Assembly: GCA_028345295.1 (NCBI GenBank)
Contig: JAOMDA010000001.1
Coordinates: 124,001-188,000, forward strand
Direction of reading: 5' to 3'
Source of the DNA: Candidatus Nitrosopelagicus sp.
GTDB taxonomy: Archaea > Thermoproteota > Nitrososphaeria > Nitrososphaerales > Nitrosopumilaceae
Length of the DNA: 64,000 nucleotides
Position numbers and translations under genes: made by a program. The first letter of the stretch is position 1, and each line of letters opens with the position of its first letter. A model generated the notes under the pieces. It worked only from the letters and a program-made list of their open reading frames with translations, searched no databases and was not told the DNA's origin. Shown in pieces: positions 1,392 to 53,392 of this stretch.

Positions 1392-1986
1392 GACTCTCTA
1401 TAACTGCAACTAATTTGATAATTTTTTTGCAGTATTTTTCTCCAACTGATTTAGAATAACCTTTTAAGAAATTATCCCAAGATTTTTTCAATATGTTAGC
1501 ATGAGCACTGTTTAGTATCTCTTTGAATAATCGTAGATCAACTGCATGATCATCAGGTTTTTCTGTTCTATTTGCAAGACCAAAATCAATTAAGACAAGT
1601 TGTTTTTTAGTTAAAATAAAATTTGATGTAGTAAGATCACCATGCATTATACCATTTTTATGTAAAACACCAACAACCTTTCCAATTTCAAAGCAGCATT
1701 TCTCAATTGCTTTTTCATTCATGTCTCGTACTAATTTACCATCAATGTATTGCATCAAAATAGAACATTTGTTAACATCAAGAAAATAAATCAAAGGTGT
1801 AGAAACACCAAATGATTTCACCTGGGAGATTATTTCAGATTCTTTAATTGTTCGTTGTTTTCTTATTCTTTTATCAAGTACCGAGTTTCTGTAAGTTTTC
1901 TCTTTTCTAATTTTTAATATGGCCTTTTTGCCATTCCATGATGACAAATAGACATCTGCCTCAGCGCCTTTTTTAACCAATTTCAT
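1366..1986 (-). CDS. bud32: KEOPS complex kinase/ATPase Bud32
   Basis: Small atypical protein kinase (206 aa) of the KEOPS complex, which with Kae1 makes N6-threonylcarbamoyladenosine in ANN-decoding tRNAs. The Gly-rich strand KKGAEADVY (residues 5-13), the Lys in AILKI (about 25), the catalytic HGD (115-117) with Asn two turns later (TTSNFIL) and DFG (134-136) are all visible. It ends in the usual RGRY tail. Bud32 and Kae1 are separate genes here, not the Kae1-Bud32 fusion of many euryarchaea. They are separated by a small gene on the other strand. Confidence 0.92.
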   Translation of the reverse strand: MKLVKKGAEADVYLSSWNGKKAILKIRKEKTYRNSVLDKRIRKQRTIKESEIISQVKSFGVSTPLIYFLDVNKCSILMQYIDGKLVRDMNEKAIEKCCFEIGKVVGVLHKNGIMHGDLTTSNFILTKKQLVLIDFGLANRTEKPDDHAVDLRLFKEILNSAHANILKKSWDNFLKGYSKSVGEKYCKKIIKLVAVIESRGRYATVV

Positions 1987-2022
1987 TAGAATTATAACTT
2001 AATTTGTAAATTAAAAGATATC

Positions 2023-2349
2023 ATGAAGGAAGGAGAAAAACGTATTAAACAAGAAGACTGTAGCGAGGATGAATTAGGGGCTGGAATACTAACACTCACT
2101 AACAAAAGATTAGCCTTTGATAAGAGAAGTGGGAGAATTGCTGATTTCTCAATGAGACTTGGGGATACAGTAATTGATGTACCACTTAACGAACTTGTTG
2201 AAGTTTGGAAAGAAGGTAGATTTATCAAAAAAATATGTTTTAAAATTAAAACCAATGATGGAGAAAAAACTTACAAATTTGGTGTTCTTGGTACTGGCGG
2301 TTGGTTAGAAGAAATTCAAGACGCTATAGAAGACATAAAGAATCAATAA
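2023..2349 (+). CDS. Small GRAM/PH-like domain protein, function unknown
   Basis: 108 aa, no signal peptide or membrane segment. The pattern ILTLTNKRLAF, then VPLNELVEV, then a hydrophobic strand and a Trp-containing C-terminal helix (GWLEEIQDAIEDI) is typical of GRAM or bacterial PH folds, which often bind lipids or proteins. This is a fold guess from residue pattern only. It lies alone on the plus strand between the minus-strand bud32 and kae1 genes and overlaps the 3' end of kae1 by 7 nt. Its promoter must lie in the 36 nt upstream or inside bud32. Confidence 0.7.
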   Translation: MKEGEKRIKQEDCSEDELGAGILTLTNKRLAFDKRSGRIADFSMRLGDTVIDVPLNELVEVWKEGRFIKKICFKIKTNDGEKTYKFGVLGTGGWLEEIQDAIEDIKNQ

Positions 2350-3326
2350 TCAATATCTACAGTATCCAATCTCCATGATTGTTTTACAAATGTATCTTTC
2401 ATAGATGCACCTTTCTTAACTTGTGATTCTAAAAGACCTGTCCATGCAATTTGTGAACCACAATCACCTGCATAATTCAATGGAACCACAAAAAATTTAG
2501 AACTTTGTCTTCTACAGACATCTTTTAGCATTGATGAAAGTCTTTTGTTTGCAGCAACACCACCTACTATCATGAGTTCTTTTTTATTTGTAAATGATAA
2601 TGCGCGTTCTGTAGCTTCAGCAATCATTGCAAATGCAGTTTCCTGTAAAGAAAAACATGCACTATCAAAACCTTGAGAAGATATATTTTTGGTAGCAGAC
2701 AGTAATCCAGAAAATGAAACATCGTTTCCTTTAACAGTGTACGGAAGTGATATGTATTTACTAGATTTTGTCGCAAGCTCTTCAATTTTTCTTCCACAAG
2801 GAGATGCAAAACCTAATGATCTACCAAATTGATCAAGTAGTTGACCAAGTGTAATGTCTAATGTTTCACCAAAGACTCTCCATCTTCCAGAAACAAATGC
2901 AAGAAGCATTGTGTGCCCGCCTGATACTAAAAGTACAAGAGGATTTTTTGCTCCAGTAAGTAATTTTCCAAGATCTAGATGCCCAATTGCATGGTTAACG
3001 GGATAAATTGGGATTTTATAGTATGAAGAAAGTGATCTTGCAACAACTGCACCTACTCTAAGACATGGACCTAGACCAGGTCCACCTGCATATGCAATCA
3101 TATCTAAATCATTAATTTTTATTTTTGATTCATCAAGACATTCGGAAAGAATGCTAGAACTGTTCTCTATATGATGACGAGAAGCCTCACGTGGATGTAT
3201 CCCTTGACCCTCTGGTGGTTTGTATATCCTTCTTATATCAGATAATATTTTTCCTCTTTTTTGCTTTTTTTCAATAACAGCACAAGAAAATGTATGTGCA
3301 GTACTTTCAATTCCTAGACAGAGCAT
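2343..3326 (-). CDS. kae1: tRNA N6-adenosine threonylcarbamoyltransferase Kae1
   Basis: Catalytic subunit of KEOPS; transfers threonylcarbamoyl from TC-AMP to A37 of tRNA. The 327-aa ASKHA-fold protein starts MLCLGIESTAHTFS, carries GIHPREASRHH near residue 43, the YAGGPGLGPCL loop and the metal-binding HAIGH (HxxxH) near residue 110. GGVAANKRL and the late Asp (AGDCG) complete the ATP site. It is stand-alone, without a fused kinase. The start is one base from the ychF stop, so both are probably on one transcript. Confidence 0.95.
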   Translation of the reverse strand: MLCLGIESTAHTFSCAVIEKKQKRGKILSDIRRIYKPPEGQGIHPREASRHHIENSSSILSECLDESKIKINDLDMIAYAGGPGLGPCLRVGAVVARSLSSYYKIPIYPVNHAIGHLDLGKLLTGAKNPLVLLVSGGHTMLLAFVSGRWRVFGETLDITLGQLLDQFGRSLGFASPCGRKIEELATKSSKYISLPYTVKGNDVSFSGLLSATKNISSQGFDSACFSLQETAFAMIAEATERALSFTNKKELMIVGGVAANKRLSSMLKDVCRRQSSKFFVVPLNYAGDCGSQIAWTGLLESQVKKGASMKDTFVKQSWRLDTVDIDY

Positions 3327-3327
3327 T

Positions 3328-4527
3328 CTAACCTCTACTTAAAGTGGAGACTATTTTTATGATATCCCCATTTTTTAAAAAATGTTCTGCGCCAATTCTT
3401 TGTTTTGTCTTTGCATCTATTGCATGTAAGAATCCTTTACCAATGTCCTGATGAATAATAAATGCTAGATCCTTAGCTGTGGAAGTAGAAGAGAGTAATT
3501 TAGCATCTGGGAGTACTTGACCGTCTTTATTAGAAAATTTTGTTTCATCTTCTACAGGAAATACAACAATCATCTTTAAGATGTCAAATATTACATAATT
3601 TAGAATTTTTTGGATGCCAGTTACTCCAATTTTATTTAAAACATTTTTTGCAAGATGTAACGCATTATTTTGTTCGTTTGAAAGATTTACATCTTGTTTA
3701 CCACTAAAACTATTGCTGCCAGAAACATAATCAATTAGTCCTGCTTTGCTAGCTTTTCTTAATAAAAGCTCAGTCTCAGCACTGCATGGAATCGTGGGAA
3801 AGTCTGCTGATATCTTTTTGATAATATCTAATTCTTCACATAGATCTGCTTTGTTAGATGCAATTAACATGGGTTTAGAAAGTTTTCTTAGTGATTTTAA
3901 AAATTTCACTATATCTGAATCCGACCATTCAGTAAGTTTTTTTGTTTTTAATGAAAGTGAATTTAAAATTTTATCAACATGTGATTCGTTAATACCTAAG
4001 CCAGTAAATCTATGTGTCAGACCCTCAGATATCTTTGTGCGTTTTTGTTCAATTTCTTTTATTAGTTTAGGCCATTCTCTATCAAGAATTTGTTTAAACC
4101 ATAGATCAAATTCTTCCTCTACAAATTTTATATCTTCTAATGGATCATGTGTTCCAATACTTACTGGTTGACCTTGAATATCAGTAGAACCAGAAATATC
4201 TACAACATGTACTAATGCATCAGCTTGCATTGCATCAGTCAAAAACTGATTCCCAAGTCCCTTACCCTCATGTGCACCTGGAACTAATCCAGCTACATCA
4301 ATTAATTTTATAGGAACAAAACGAGTTCCTTCAATGCATGAACTATTCCCACATCTAGTTTTTAGATTCTTACACGCACAATCTGTTTTTACATAAGACA
4401 CACCAATATTTGGTTCAATTGTTGTAAATGGAAAATTTCCACTTTGAACCATTGTTTCAGTTGCTGCAGAAAAAAATGTAGATTTACCAACATTTGCTTT
4501 CCCAATAAGACCGATTTGCATGTTCAC
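3328..4527 (-). CDS. ychF: YchF/OLA1-type ATPase/GTPase
   Basis: TRAFAC-class P-loop protein linked to ribosomes and stress responses, and often ATP-preferring in this family. 399 aa with G1 GKANVGKST (9-17), G3 DVAGLVPGAHEGKG, the NKAD element (ASNKADLC) and a C-terminal TGS domain from about residue 320. After switch I there is a Cys-rich insertion (CACKNLKTRCGNSSC) typical of archaeal members. It is co-directional with kae1 and likely the first gene of that pair. Confidence 0.92.
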   Translation of the reverse strand: MNMQIGLIGKANVGKSTFFSAATETMVQSGNFPFTTIEPNIGVSYVKTDCACKNLKTRCGNSSCIEGTRFVPIKLIDVAGLVPGAHEGKGLGNQFLTDAMQADALVHVVDISGSTDIQGQPVSIGTHDPLEDIKFVEEEFDLWFKQILDREWPKLIKEIEQKRTKISEGLTHRFTGLGINESHVDKILNSLSLKTKKLTEWSDSDIVKFLKSLRKLSKPMLIASNKADLCEELDIIKKISADFPTIPCSAETELLLRKASKAGLIDYVSGSNSFSGKQDVNLSNEQNNALHLAKNVLNKIGVTGIQKILNYVIFDILKMIVVFPVEDETKFSNKDGQVLPDAKLLSSTSTAKDLAFIIHQDIGKGFLHAIDAKTKQRIGAEHFLKNGDIIKIVSTLSRG

Positions 4528-48173: not shown

Positions 48174-50828
48174 CTATCCAGATGTACATCCGCTATATCC
48201 ACACTCAATGCAAATACTACAGCCTTCTATTAGTACAAGATTATTTTTACATGTAGGACAAAGATTCTCTTCTTTTGGTTCTTCTACTATTGGAGTAGGC
48301 CTCTTAATATCTTCGTGAGATACTACTAGTTTTAGTGCATTGTTAACCTGTTCTTTGATATATGGATTAGTGATAGTATCATGAATGTAATCATGTAAGT
48401 AGTTGGAAGGAACAACATCAAACGTCTTTTGCGCATTTTCATCTGTCATATGTAATACTTGTTTGTGTCTTGACCCATCTCTATATACAGTAATTCCTTT
48501 TAGACCAATTTCGTGTGCAAGTAAATATGCTGCTTTGACATCATCAGCAGATACATCATTTGGCATATTGATTGTTTTTGCAATAGCATTTCCAATCCAA
48601 TCTTGCCATACACCTTGAGCCATTAGATGATCTGACCAGTGTATGTCCATTGCAGTGACAAATATTTTTTGCATCCATTCGGGAATTTCTTCTATTCCTC
48701 GAACAGAACCATAATTACTAGCAATTTTTGCAAGTAATTCATCACTGTAAAGACCATTCTCTCGTAATACTTGTTCAAAAATCTTATTTGTATAGAAGAA
48801 TCTACCTACGGTAACTCTCTTTTCAAATACTAATGCAAATGTTGGTTCCATTCCATTAGAACAATCAGCAATCATTGACAGTGTACCTGTAGGAGCAACT
48901 GTTGTTGTTAAAACATTTCTAATTCCATATTTCTGAATTTTTTCAATAAGCGCATCCCAATCATAATAATGTGCATTCTTTGGTTTCTCATAATACCCTG
49001 CAATTGGAATCTTACCATCAGGAAATTCTGTCTTGGAGCATAATGGAAATTCAGTTCTAGATTGTGCCAAGGCGACACTCTCTTCCATTGAATAATATGA
49101 TAATGCTTCAGAGAGTTTTGACATAAATTCATAGCCCTCTTTAGAATTGTATGGAATTCGTAGTTTATACAAAAGATCTGCAACTCCCATTACACCAAGA
49201 CCTATTCTCCTAGAATCCTTTGATGCTACATTGATTTCTGGTACAGGATAATGGTTGACATCAATTACATTATCTAAGAATCTTGTTGTTTTTCGAATAA
49301 CCTCTTCATATTTCTGCCAGTCAAATTCGTATTGACCATCTGCTTTTCTTTTTACAAGATTAGCTAAATTTATCGAACCGAGATTACATGATTCGTATGG
49401 ATAAAGACTTTGTTCACCACATGGATTAGTTGCTTTTAGTGGTCCACCTCTTGCTTTTGCAAATACATTGTACTCATTTATTTTATCAAAGAAAATCAAT
49501 CCAGGTTCAGCGCTTTTCCATGCAGAGTTTGCAATAAGATCAATCAAGTGATGTGCATTAACTTCTCTTACAGGAGAATTATCACGTGTACTTCTTAGTG
49601 TGTAAGCACCATCTTCTGAATTAACTAATGCATTCCAAAAGTCTTCCCATATTCCTACACTAACGTTAAAGTTCTCTAATACTCCTGGCTCTGTTTTGTT
49701 TGTTATGAATTTTTCAATATCAGGATGCCAAACATCCATGATGCCCATATTTGCACCTCTTCTCTTTCCCCCTTGTTTGACTACTTCTGTAACTGAATTA
49801 ATTATGTTCATGAATGATACTGGTCCTGATGCTACGCCTGACGTTGAGGCTACAATATCTCCTTCTTCTCTAAGTTCTGAATAGTTAATACCAACTCCAC
49901 CACCTGATTTGAAAATTAAAGCAGCATCTGATGTTGATTTCATAATACCTGCCATATCATCAGGCATTCCAAGAACAAAACATGCTGATAATTGACCAAG
50001 ACGACCACCTGCATTCATCATTGTTGGAGAGTTTGGTAAAAAGATTTGATTTATCATTAAAGAATAGTATTCATTTATTTTTTCAGAATAGATATTAAAT
50101 TTTTTAGCAGCTAATTGTGTTAAGAGTGTTTTAAATCCAATTTTCATTTGTCCATTCTTTGCAAGATCTACATAGCCGTTAATAAGACCTCTAAAGTGCC
50201 ATTTGTTTAGATAGTACTCACCGATTTTAAATTTATAGTCAAAGTGATCAAGTTTAGTAAGATACTCTGTGGCTTCTTCTAAATTTTGTGATGTGTTACC
50301 GTTCTTGTCAAAAATCTCGTTGTCATGTAAAAGATCCCCAATTCCAATTAGAACTGCAACTCTTTCAAACATTGCAGTTGGACTTTCAGTGATTTCATTT
50401 TTACTATTTCTCATTAGATAACGTGATGCTAAAACACGAAGACAGTTAAGATCAAATACCTTAGAAACGGAATCAAGAGTATCTGTGTTTAGAACCTTCA
50501 TTTTTTCATCTCGAATCTTTCTACGTTCATGTCTATACAGGATGTAGGATTTTGCAATTTCACTGTGACCCTGTTCAATTAATGTTGATTCAACCATATC
50601 TTGAATATCTTCAACACTTGGTGGTCGTGATGACGAGAATCCCTGTATAGTTAGCTTGTCTAGTACACCATTCGTTAATTCTTCTGCAAGATCGCGATCA
50701 TCTTGGTTTGTTGCCATTAATGCTTTATGGATTGCATTTGTGATCTTATTTTTGTCAAAATTTGTTACTTTACCATTTCTCTTTCTAATTTCGGCGATAG
50801 AACTTTCTATTTGTGAATTTTCAACCAA
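48174..50828 (-). CDS. nrdJ: Adenosylcobalamin-dependent (class II) ribonucleotide reductase
   Basis: 884 aa; reduces ribonucleotides to deoxyribonucleotides by a B12-generated thiyl radical, independent of oxygen. N-terminal ATP-cone (RKRNGKVTNFDKNKITNAIHKAL), first reactive Cys in GQLSACFVLGMPDD, the radical Cys and Glu in NPCGEQ, SCNLGSINLANLV, and PTGTLSMIADCSNG. The C-terminal tail has Cys pairs CPTC and CIEC plus a final CxxSG-type reductive Cys. The AdoB12 operon is in the same window. The spacer before it carries two inverted repeats. Confidence 0.96.
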   Translation of the reverse strand: MVENSQIESSIAEIRKRNGKVTNFDKNKITNAIHKALMATNQDDRDLAEELTNGVLDKLTIQGFSSSRPPSVEDIQDMVESTLIEQGHSEIAKSYILYRHERRKIRDEKMKVLNTDTLDSVSKVFDLNCLRVLASRYLMRNSKNEITESPTAMFERVAVLIGIGDLLHDNEIFDKNGNTSQNLEEATEYLTKLDHFDYKFKIGEYYLNKWHFRGLINGYVDLAKNGQMKIGFKTLLTQLAAKKFNIYSEKINEYYSLMINQIFLPNSPTMMNAGGRLGQLSACFVLGMPDDMAGIMKSTSDAALIFKSGGGVGINYSELREEGDIVASTSGVASGPVSFMNIINSVTEVVKQGGKRRGANMGIMDVWHPDIEKFITNKTEPGVLENFNVSVGIWEDFWNALVNSEDGAYTLRSTRDNSPVREVNAHHLIDLIANSAWKSAEPGLIFFDKINEYNVFAKARGGPLKATNPCGEQSLYPYESCNLGSINLANLVKRKADGQYEFDWQKYEEVIRKTTRFLDNVIDVNHYPVPEINVASKDSRRIGLGVMGVADLLYKLRIPYNSKEGYEFMSKLSEALSYYSMEESVALAQSRTEFPLCSKTEFPDGKIPIAGYYEKPKNAHYYDWDALIEKIQKYGIRNVLTTTVAPTGTLSMIADCSNGMEPTFALVFEKRVTVGRFFYTNKIFEQVLRENGLYSDELLAKIASNYGSVRGIEEIPEWMQKIFVTAMDIHWSDHLMAQGVWQDWIGNAIAKTINMPNDVSADDVKAAYLLAHEIGLKGITVYRDGSRHKQVLHMTDENAQKTFDVVPSNYLHDYIHDTITNPYIKEQVNNALKLVVSHEDIKRPTPIVEEPKEENLCPTCKNNLVLIEGCSICIECGYSGCTSG

Positions 50829-50891
50829 TCATAACTCCTCAAGAGAAGTTAAGATTGTCAAGAATATATCTTCTTTGCCAACTAAATTCTT

Positions 50892-50906
50892 AGTTCGAGC
50901 TGAACT
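50892..50906. repeat. Inverted repeat AGTTC-N5-GAACT in the nrdJ promoter region
   Basis: 5-bp perfect arms (50892-50896 and 50902-50906), 64-78 nt upstream of the nrdJ ATG. Short arms could arise by chance in AT-rich DNA. Listed because it adjoins the stronger repeat at 50911. Confidence 0.3.
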
Positions 50907-50910
50907 TTTT

Positions 50911-50936
50911 TTACAACGTTACAGTTTTTGTTGTAA
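50911..50936. promoter_or_regulatory. Inverted repeat TTACAAC-N12-GTTGTAA upstream of nrdJ
   Basis: 7-bp perfect arms at 50911-50917 and 50930-50936, about 83-108 nt before the nrdJ start. The spacing of 19 bp centre to centre is close to two helical turns, as for dimer operators. It is in the spacer between the HTH/NrdD-like gene and nrdJ, so that regulator-like protein is a possible binder. This is inference. Confidence 0.4.
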
Positions 50937-51007
50937 TGGTAATTCATAATGGTAAAAAAAATCTCTGCTTGGATCGTTTTCAAATTTATAGAATAACGAA
51001 TTTCGTT

Positions 51008-53167
51008 TTATAAAATATACTGTGATTTACAATTTGGACATTTGTCGACTAACTTCTCTCCTTTGAAACCACAATTTCCACATACTGGTACATGAATAAT
51101 TGGTTTAAACGCCGAAGTCAGCAAACTAATCTTGTCAATTACTGTCTTTATCTCTGTAGGCTTTGATTTCTTATCAAAATTAATTTTCAAAAGCAGACCA
51201 CCATTTAGTATCTTAGATATCTTACTAGATTCTAAAATTAGTGGGTTTTTTGCTGTTAGATCGCTAGATTTTGATGGATCAATCGAGAATCCTTGTGAAT
51301 ATATTCCAGAATCAGTTGAATCTTGAACAGAATTCTTGCCATATTTCTCACTATCTAGAGTAGTAAATCTTGAAATGCCGTCTGTATCAACCATTGCAAT
51401 TGTAACAGTTACTCCTAGTTCTTTTCCTTTTTTTGTTGCAACATCAACTGCAGTTTGAAGAACTTTATAAAGAATTTCGTGACCTGCTTTGTCATCCTTA
51501 TGACCAAGTATACTAAAGACAGCTTCATTTAATCCAACAAGATTTAGAATTAAAGACATTGAATTTTTTTGCATGAACTGTGTGTTTTTGCTAAGAAGTG
51601 GATTCATTCCACGTCTTGTAAGATCAGAGATATCTTTTTTTCTTAAAATCATTGAATCAAGTGCTGGTTTGATTAATAAAGCAAGTCTAGCTCTAAAGTA
51701 TGTTTCATCTTTATTTGATTCAAATGCAAGACGTGGAAGATTGATTGTCAATGAACCAAGTTTAATTGATGTTCCAATGTGTTTTTCTTCTGCCTTTAGT
51801 ATTCCATTTGTTGAACATGAACCTTTTGAGAATATTACATTACCACCAATAGAAATTATTGTAGAGAGTGTATCAGATATCTCTAATATCTTTCCTTTTT
51901 CATAGTCAATTACTAATCCAATCTTTGATAATGGTGTTATTTCTAGATATGATCTATATGCAGATAATATTGTCTTTATAATTTTTTGATCTGTTGATAC
52001 ATTAAGTCTAAATGATATAACTGTCGGAGACTTATCATAACTTATAGATGTAGAAGATAATTTAAAAATATCAAGTAAACTTTTTTCAATATCTCCTAGA
52101 TTCTTGGATGTTTTTGCTAACACCGATGGAAGTTCATCTATTACAACTTCTTGTGAAGCTTCTTTTGAGACTAAAGAAAAAATCATTGGTAGTAATACAG
52201 ACAAGTCATTAAGATTTTTAGGTTGTAAAACTCGTGATACCACAAGAGATTTGCCTCCTAGTTGTAAGCCTTCTTCAATTAGTTCTTTAAGATTTAGGAA
52301 TACTACATCAGGAACGAGTGACCATATACCTGGATTTGTGATATGTAAATCTCCTGATAAATGCGAATCTGCTACATCTTTTGGGAGAGTATTTGTAAGT
52401 AAATACTCTGCTAGAACATTCTTACCTGTATTAAATAAAATATCTTCTGCACCATTTTGAATATTTTCTACATTTGTAAACATCTCTTTGATATCAAATA
52501 CAGGCATTCCAAGTCGTGCAAGTTTATTTCGATATTCTTCGTAGCTATGTTCTAAGAGTACATTGTTAACCATTTCACGTATTAACGAACCTGTTAGATA
52601 TGTTGTTTGAAATTTATATATACGATTTTCAACTTCTTCAGTTATTTTTTGTGCTAATTCTAATGGTAAACTACCTTCACGTACTAATGATTGAATAATT
52701 TTATGTGAATTAAATTCTTCAATCGAATCATGAGATGTTCGTACATACATTTTTCCACTCTCAATGATTGAACGTTCTTCAATTTGCCGTGCAAGACTTA
52801 ACACTAGTTTGCCTAGATTAGTAATTGTATATCGTCTTTCCGATTTATTAAGAGCAACTAATGATTGACGTAAAAGTTTTCTAAGATGATATGCAAATTT
52901 ACCACTTTCCTTTTTTGACTTAAAACCAGCTAATGATTTTAGCTCGGAATAAGTCAAAGGGCCTTTTGAATTAAGAATTCTTAAAATATCTATTCTGTTA
53001 GGGCTTGCCATAACAGAAAATATCATTCTGACACGCTTTGATGTAGATTGTAAAAGACCACCACCATCTTTTACATCGTCATCTAAAACTAGATCATCGT
53101 CATCATCAGTATCTACAGAATCTAATTCTAATTCTTCATCAAATGCTACTTCCTCATCTTTTCCCAT
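51008..53167 (-). CDS. HTH/ATP-cone/NrdD-like fusion protein lacking the glycyl-radical site
   Basis: 719 aa. Acidic start (about 1-35); ArsR-like winged helix (SVMASPNRIDILRILNSKGP onward, about 50-125); ATP-cone (RTSHDSIEEFNSHKIIQSLV, about 140-230); then a class III NrdD-like barrel (LAEYLLTNTLPKDVADSHLSG, LTINLPRLAF, GLNEAVFSILG); a final zinc site CGNCGF...CPNC. NrdD enzymes continue past this zinc site into the RxxGY glycyl-radical loop; here the chain ends. Only one other Cys is present (GSCSTNG), the HIHD element reads HITN. It is thus probably not a reductase but a dNTP-sensing regulator. Located upstream of nrdJ, same direction. Confidence 0.82.
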   Translation of the reverse strand: MGKDEEVAFDEELELDSVDTDDDDDLVLDDDVKDGGGLLQSTSKRVRMIFSVMASPNRIDILRILNSKGPLTYSELKSLAGFKSKKESGKFAYHLRKLLRQSLVALNKSERRYTITNLGKLVLSLARQIEERSIIESGKMYVRTSHDSIEEFNSHKIIQSLVREGSLPLELAQKITEEVENRIYKFQTTYLTGSLIREMVNNVLLEHSYEEYRNKLARLGMPVFDIKEMFTNVENIQNGAEDILFNTGKNVLAEYLLTNTLPKDVADSHLSGDLHITNPGIWSLVPDVVFLNLKELIEEGLQLGGKSLVVSRVLQPKNLNDLSVLLPMIFSLVSKEASQEVVIDELPSVLAKTSKNLGDIEKSLLDIFKLSSTSISYDKSPTVISFRLNVSTDQKIIKTILSAYRSYLEITPLSKIGLVIDYEKGKILEISDTLSTIISIGGNVIFSKGSCSTNGILKAEEKHIGTSIKLGSLTINLPRLAFESNKDETYFRARLALLIKPALDSMILRKKDISDLTRRGMNPLLSKNTQFMQKNSMSLILNLVGLNEAVFSILGHKDDKAGHEILYKVLQTAVDVATKKGKELGVTVTIAMVDTDGISRFTTLDSEKYGKNSVQDSTDSGIYSQGFSIDPSKSSDLTAKNPLILESSKISKILNGGLLLKINFDKKSKPTEIKTVIDKISLLTSAFKPIIHVPVCGNCGFKGEKLVDKCPNCKSQYIL

Positions 53168-53224: not shown

Positions 53225-53392
53225 TTAGGATTTGTTATCATCAATATCTAATGAAAATTGAGTTGTAGAAAGTCGCTGTCCACATTTTGGACATTTATTA
53301 TCGTAATGTTTTAAAACATCTTTGACGGACTTTAGCATTTTCATTGCAGAAATTTTTTCACCACACTGTCCACAAATAATTTCTACAGACAT
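53225..53392 (-). CDS. 55-aa zinc-ribbon protein
   Basis: Read directly from the bases: ATG at 53392, TAA at 53225-53227. Two Cys pairs, CGQC (IICGQCGEK) and CPKC (NKCPKCGQRL), 27 residues apart, make a compact zinc ribbon, linked by a helix (KMLKSVKDVLKHY). No family name. It lies 57 nt upstream of the HTH/NrdD-like gene in the same direction and may be co-transcribed. Confidence 0.75.
   Translation of the reverse strand: MSVEIICGQCGEKISAMKMLKSVKDVLKHYDNKCPKCGQRLSTTQFSLDIDDNKS

Follow-up and report, generated by a model that had tools for sequence, protein, structure and literature searches.

A 719-aa open reading frame in the window, the 64,000-nucleotide stretch of archaeal DNA analysed here, probably encodes a catalytically dead paralogue of the class III ribonucleotide reductase (RNR) NrdD that has taken on the role of a transcription factor for RNR genes. 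The gene (51008–53167, minus strand, stop codon included), defined by its open reading frame and its Pfam matches, joins a winged helix-turn-helix (wHTH), an ATP-cone, a pseudo-NrdD body and a zinc site in one chain. Directly downstream, as the initial annotation had stated, lies a class II enzyme: nrdJ (48174–50828, minus strand), which encodes an adenosylcobalamin-dependent RNR with an ATP-cone of its own and, judging from profile matches and adjacency, is the presumed target. We infer the DNA binding, the ligands and the polarity of the fusion protein. Among named relatives, those closest to it are Ca. Nitrosopelagicus (89%) and species of Nitrosopumilus and Nitrosotalea, all of them ammonia-oxidising archaea (AOA), which are aerobes.

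Architecture and catalytic residues of the fusion protein

The N-terminal ArsR-like HTH, the ATP-cone and the NrdD body that had been read from the DNA are all recovered above cut-off by Pfam profile search. The wHTH (residues ~44–130; 52778–53038, minus strand) matches DUF7347 (E 2e-10, 41.0 bits against a cut-off of 27.6) and HTH_20 (E 9e-8, 32.5 bits against 27). The ATP-cone (residues ~138–222; 52502–52756, minus strand) matches PF03477 (E 3e-9) and the degenerate class III RNR barrel (residues ~245–690; 51098–52435, minus strand) matches NRDD, PF13597 (E 8e-30), both above Pfam's own cut-offs. The NrdD equivalog model of NCBIfam, TIGR02487, yields 99.7 bits, far under its cut-off of 326.35; by this curated model, the fusion protein is thus not a NrdD. 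The window's genome (1.07 Mb, 92% complete) contains no second NRDD match (PF13597) and exactly two ATP-cones, one in the fusion protein and one in NrdJ.

The protein contains five cysteines. Four of them (C696, C699, C710 and C713) make up the CxxC/CxxC of a Cys4 zinc site at the end of the chain (51029–51082, minus strand), and the fifth, Cys451 in the finger-loop region, is the single non-zinc cysteine, in line with what had been noted initially. Of 26 orthologues, 24 have V, A, T or I at the position of Cys451, and cysteine is limited to the window's own branch; hence Cys451 is no conserved catalytic residue. The chain stops where NrdD runs on to the glycyl-radical loop. The early claim that the glycyl radical is lacking holds for the 719-aa frame, which contains no RxxGY, for the genome, which contains no glycyl-radical motif, and for the 18 AOA sequences examined, none of which has an RxxGY loop. 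In the same-genus orthologue G108 (L076), the chain ends even before the zinc site (..SSFKPNQIK), and the site is also missing in L137–L139, indicating that the zinc tail is dispensable in some lineages.

The assignment of the body to NrdD also stands by structure prediction. The family profile aligns with the sequences of five solved class III RNRs (E 3e-36 to 8e-31), and a Foldseek search with the AF2 model of the barrel returned NrdD structures as all of its top 33 matches, with 4coj first (E 4e-14). The model of the full protein has a pLDDT of 56 and is usable for the barrel but not for the HTH. A separate model of the HTH and cone, also of low confidence (pLDDT 58), finds NrdR structures as best matches over ~100 columns, at only E 4e-3.

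In Prevotella NrdD (PMC11226230), the two active-site cysteines are Cys171 and Cys416 and the radical resides on Gly711; the HxHD motif binds the triphosphate of the substrate, and loop 2 conveys the specificity signal. A residue census of 53 fusion sequences (18 AOA and 35 others), numbered on the true NrdD of locus L084, shows how far the corresponding positions have changed. Cys182 of strand beta1 (0/18 AOA, 0/35 others), the second histidine of HxHD and Gln277 of loop 2 are retained in none of the 53. The thiyl Cys394 of the finger loop is absent from all 18 AOA sequences and retained in 5/35 of the others; for Glu563 of the phosphate loop the counts are 0/18 and 3/35, and for the radical Gly712, or a nearby glycine, 0/18 and 2/35. 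No sequence retains the full catalytic set, including the five with the thiyl cysteine and the two with the glycine. The true NrdDs of the sampled genomes combine an RxxGY end with a Cys-Cys finger motif (QCCAYCF, MCCRLRI), a combination missing from every HTH-fused protein. The fold residues G166, NLPR, D573, Y609, G639 and the zinc cysteines are retained at ~90% or more. Taken with the profile alignment and the Foldseek matches, this pattern shows that the fold has been kept while the enzyme is dead.

The NrdD activase NrdG (TIGR02495 model) exceeds its cut-off in 0/17 genomes of the order, and has no match above cut-off in the window's genome. NrdG2 is above cut-off in 13 genomes, each of which has a true NrdD, and most genomes with a true NrdD are positive; in G230, the NrdG2 score of 128.6 is just below the cut-off of 131.15.

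Occurrence, phylogeny and neighbouring genes

A protein search across 398 genomes of the phylum found the fusion protein in 74/74 listed genomes of the window's family and order, and no listed miss belongs there; recurrence of its features in all sampled genomes of the order places the fusion far beyond chance. Matches of ~740–780 aa with unchanged architecture occur in numerous lineages elsewhere in the phylum, which we suspect to be Bathyarchaeia and their relatives. Seventy loci around fusion members and true NrdDs were fetched for comparison. DUF7347, ATP-cone and NRDD occur together in 52/52 members, all of them catalytically degenerate, and an HTH match is found in 0/20 true NrdDs. The initial reading of a degenerate reductase fused to an HTH applies to all 52 members, for which DNA binding and regulation are predicted.

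A barrel tree built with FastTree places 24 true NrdDs, together with the L125 protein, on one side with a support of 0.998, and all HTH fusions outside. Branching within the pseudo-NrdDs is poorly resolved, so the tree is no more than compatible with a single origin. An unusual VRTS ATP-cone is common to several true NrdDs (L101, L102) and fusions, which would be consistent with an origin of the fusion by local duplication of nrdD. The L125 protein (1463–3739, plus strand) is NrdD-like, lacks the HTH, the zinc tail and the glycyl-radical motif, and is an independent degenerate NrdD. Near one non-AOA family member, L139 encodes a stand-alone 94-aa ATP-cone protein (1625–1906, plus strand).

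In 25/25 AOA genomes examined, nrdJ follows the fusion gene directly on the same strand, so the pairing seen in the window extends to its relatives. The pairing with nrdJ is not exclusive, however, and the earlier expectation has to be widened in this respect: a true nrdD is the direct downstream neighbour in families f27, f37 and f57 (nine genomes), and pyr genes are found beside the fusion gene in further lineages. In L089, a glutaredoxin gene lies between the fusion gene and the true nrdD, and in the non-AOA genome G019 the fusion gene is directly upstream of nrdJ. The association is therefore with RNR genes of either class. Accordingly, genomes with the fusion gene contain NrdJ only, both RNR classes or NrdD only. 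Such partner switching fits a regulator of ribonucleotide reduction and would not be expected of a subunit that serves a single class of RNR.

The RNR genes themselves show some peculiarities. Frames of 1000–1300 aa with a match split by ~300 aa occur in L131 and L132 (nrdD) and in G027, G043, G172, G121 and G085 (nrdJ), and these probably carry inteins. On the other side of the fusion gene, directly upstream in the window, an unlisted frame (53225–53392, minus strand) encodes a 55-aa zinc protein with a double CxxC. Of the 72 fetched loci that contain this frame, 66 have it at the same place and on the same strand, and it is possibly a third member of the regulator–nrdJ locus.

NrdR has been described as rare in archaea (PMC9110341). 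The NrdR model TIGR00244 finds no member in the 17 genomes of the order, the window's own included; NrdR was found only in three f5 genomes, beside their nrdD.

The nrdJ upstream region and the breadth of the putative regulon

The spacer between regulator and nrdJ comprises 179 bp in the window (50829–51007) and contains a conserved element (50898–50944, minus strand) that, by its conservation, is a candidate operator. Within the window's family, the block has the consensus Cca-TAtgAa-tt-AT-GtA-cGgTGTcAA-aataTTGA. Its core, GGTGTnAAnnnnnTTGA, mostly lies between -89 and -104 relative to nrdJ and has the highest information of all 17-column windows in the spacer, above the TATA and ribosome-site regions. 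The copy in the window itself is weak, a variant of GGTGTcAAnnnnnTTGA with two mismatches (50901–50917, minus strand) inside the candidate operator. Downstream of the operator, GATATATTC (50862–50870, minus strand) is the putative TATA box of nrdJ, assigned by alignment with the conserved TTTATA/TTATAT. The element thus lies upstream of the TATA region and not over it, which favours activation over repression, although this is a weak lean.

Exact matches to the core number 38 in 12 genomes, nine in the nrdJ spacer and 29 elsewhere, against 33 for a reversed-pattern control. As far as the pattern tells, the element is therefore private to nrdJ. Only the window's family shows it clearly, and it was not seen in other families of the order. 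TGTCAA-N-TTGA pairs are not convincingly enriched near non-AOA members (4/36 against 2.5 expected) or near true nrdDs (4/24 against 1.9 expected). In L101, a neat copy, CGGTGTGTCAATTTTTGAT, resembling the AOA nrdJ element is present between the pseudo-NrdD and the true nrdD (3440–3675, minus strand). Upstream of the regulator gene itself, only scattered weak matches with two mismatches were found, which gives no sign of autoregulation through the AOA element. An Rfam search of the locus returned only two weak matches, far below their gathering scores, and so offers no riboswitch to account for nrdJ control. The conserved element could also belong to a factor other than the fusion protein.

These data bear on how far the regulon may extend. 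In several non-AOA families, the fusion gene is convergent with pyrB or pyrI instead of having an RNR neighbour, and in other non-AOA loci it lies near genes for CTP synthase, an amino-acid-kinase-family protein or glutaredoxin. The protein might accordingly be a wider regulator of nucleotide metabolism that controls a pyrimidine/dNTP regulon with RNR as one output. We regard this as the lesser prospect, with perhaps one chance in several, since the AOA element occurs elsewhere in the genome at chance frequency and convergent neighbours have no promoter in common with the fusion gene.

Selective constraint, proposed mechanism and known regulators

The three parts of the protein have diverged to very different degrees. 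Among AOA, distant members included, the HTHs are on average 89% identical, the cones 75% and the barrels 41%; between AOA and other lineages, these means fall to 34%, 52% and 20%, respectively. In close pairs, the HTH shows dN of 0–0.015 at dS of 0.5–1.35 (dN/dS ~0–0.02), the cone dN of 0–0.04 and the barrel dN of 0.04–0.12 at dS of 0.5–1.3 (dN/dS ~0.1). Judged from these substitution rates, the whole protein is under purifying selection, which is strongest at the presumed DNA- and nucleotide-contacting parts.

That constraint is highest in the wHTH, which is best explained by DNA contact, weighs against a second alternative, in which the protein would be an allosteric partner that tunes the activity of NrdJ or NrdD and uses its HTH for protein contact or as a tether between RNR and DNA. 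The adjacency to RNR genes and the retention of an NrdD fold with a dimer-forming body would suit such a partner. So would the situation in G338 (L071), where NrdJ (794-aa frame) seems to have no ATP-cone and no cone other than that of the fusion protein was found in the genome. In the other AOA tested, however, NrdJ carries its own cone, and the partners encoded by nrdJ and nrdD are unrelated in class, which makes a common protein interface less likely. An allosteric partner is thus improbable, and somewhat more so than the wider regulon.

The constraint on the body, together with its retained NrdD fold, could likewise be taken to indicate that, with a divergent active site, the protein still works or moonlights as a ribonucleotide reductase, or as some other enzyme. 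With both active-site cysteines, the radical glycine, HxHD, loop 2 and NrdG missing, and a complete NrdJ already present in AOA, this is very unlikely. A decaying pseudogene or an assembly artefact, as might be suggested by frameshifts or splits in a few copies (G311, L033) and by the G108 copy lacking the zinc site, is refuted by conservation in 74/74 genomes of the order at dN/dS ~0–0.1.

For the preferred reading, a transcription factor of RNR descent, the ATP-cone is a credible sensor and would read the ATP/dATP balance, as it does in NrdR and NrdD. Sensing of dNTPs by the NrdD body itself is less certain, given the loss of loop 2 and an unsure alignment at the specificity site. The dead body may instead serve as a dimerisation and relay module: the bound nucleotide would alter the pairing of NrdD-fold barrels and cones, and the altered pairing would determine how far apart two wHTH heads lie on a site resembling an inverted repeat. 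Once bound to such a site ahead of the nrdJ TATA box, the wHTH pair would change transcription. Low dNTP levels might lead to activation, and a rise in dATP to release or to a repressive higher oligomer, again as a weak lean. NrdR and NrdD both offer precedents, as dATP/ATP loading changes the oligomeric state of NrdR and permits its binding to promoters (PMC9110341), and dATP shifts the dimer–tetramer balance of NrdD (PMC11226230).

On a broader account, about which we are evenly divided, the fusion proteins are an old archaeal regulator family found on two large branches of the phylum. The family would stem from a duplicated class III RNR that was deprived of catalysis and acquired a wHTH, and its members would stand in for NrdR as nucleotide-sensing transcription factors, acting on the RNR class in use in each cell. 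The AOA member would control nrdJ via the element at about -100.

The fusion protein is neither a NrdD, whose defining residues it lacks, nor an NrdR, whose TIGR00244 model it does not match, but most likely it works like NrdR. NrdR is a repressor of RNR genes in bacteria and, rarely, in archaea; it binds the promoters of these genes and changes its oligomeric state in response to ATP and dATP (PMC9110341). The two resemble each other in the ATP-cone as nucleotide sensor, in the transcription-factor role, here inferred, and in a gene often found beside RNR genes. NrdR, however, is a protein of ~150 aa with an N-terminal Zn-ribbon as DNA-binding domain, whereas the fusion protein has a predicted DNA-binding wHTH and a whole dead NrdD after the cone. 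The initial annotation had called it analogous but unrelated to NrdR. The analogy is upheld, and the lack of relationship applies to the DNA-binding part and the rest of the chain but not to the ATP-cone domain, which is common to both. With class III NrdD (PF13597, TIGR02487), it shares the homologous barrel, the terminal zinc site and the ATP-cone, and differs in the loss of the glycyl radical, active-site cysteines, HxHD and loop 2 and in its N-terminal wHTH. Its predicted DNA-binding head is above Pfam cut-offs for archaeal ArsR-type wHTH domains (DUF7347, HTH_20) but shows no sign of metal sensing and is joined to RNR-derived modules. A precedent for a transcription factor of enzyme descent is WhiA, which is related to homing endonucleases (PMC3781837), although its fold and role are unrelated to those of the fusion protein. 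Overall, the interpretation given at the outset is supported and was right in substance, and none of the findings that it had named as contrary evidence turned up.

The open-access full-text literature searched, papers on NrdR and on RNR phylogeny among it, contains no description of a wHTH–ATP-cone–NrdD fusion. We know of no settled answer to how most archaea control RNR transcription and, to our knowledge, there is no earlier case of an RNR catalytic subunit turned transcription factor. The protein described here provides a candidate RNR regulator in every sampled genome of the AOA order, with a specific promoter element. A NrdD annotation in aerobic archaea does not mean an anaerobic reductase. 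If the proposed role is true, an enzyme family has been reused as a sensor of the very nucleotides that it formerly produced.
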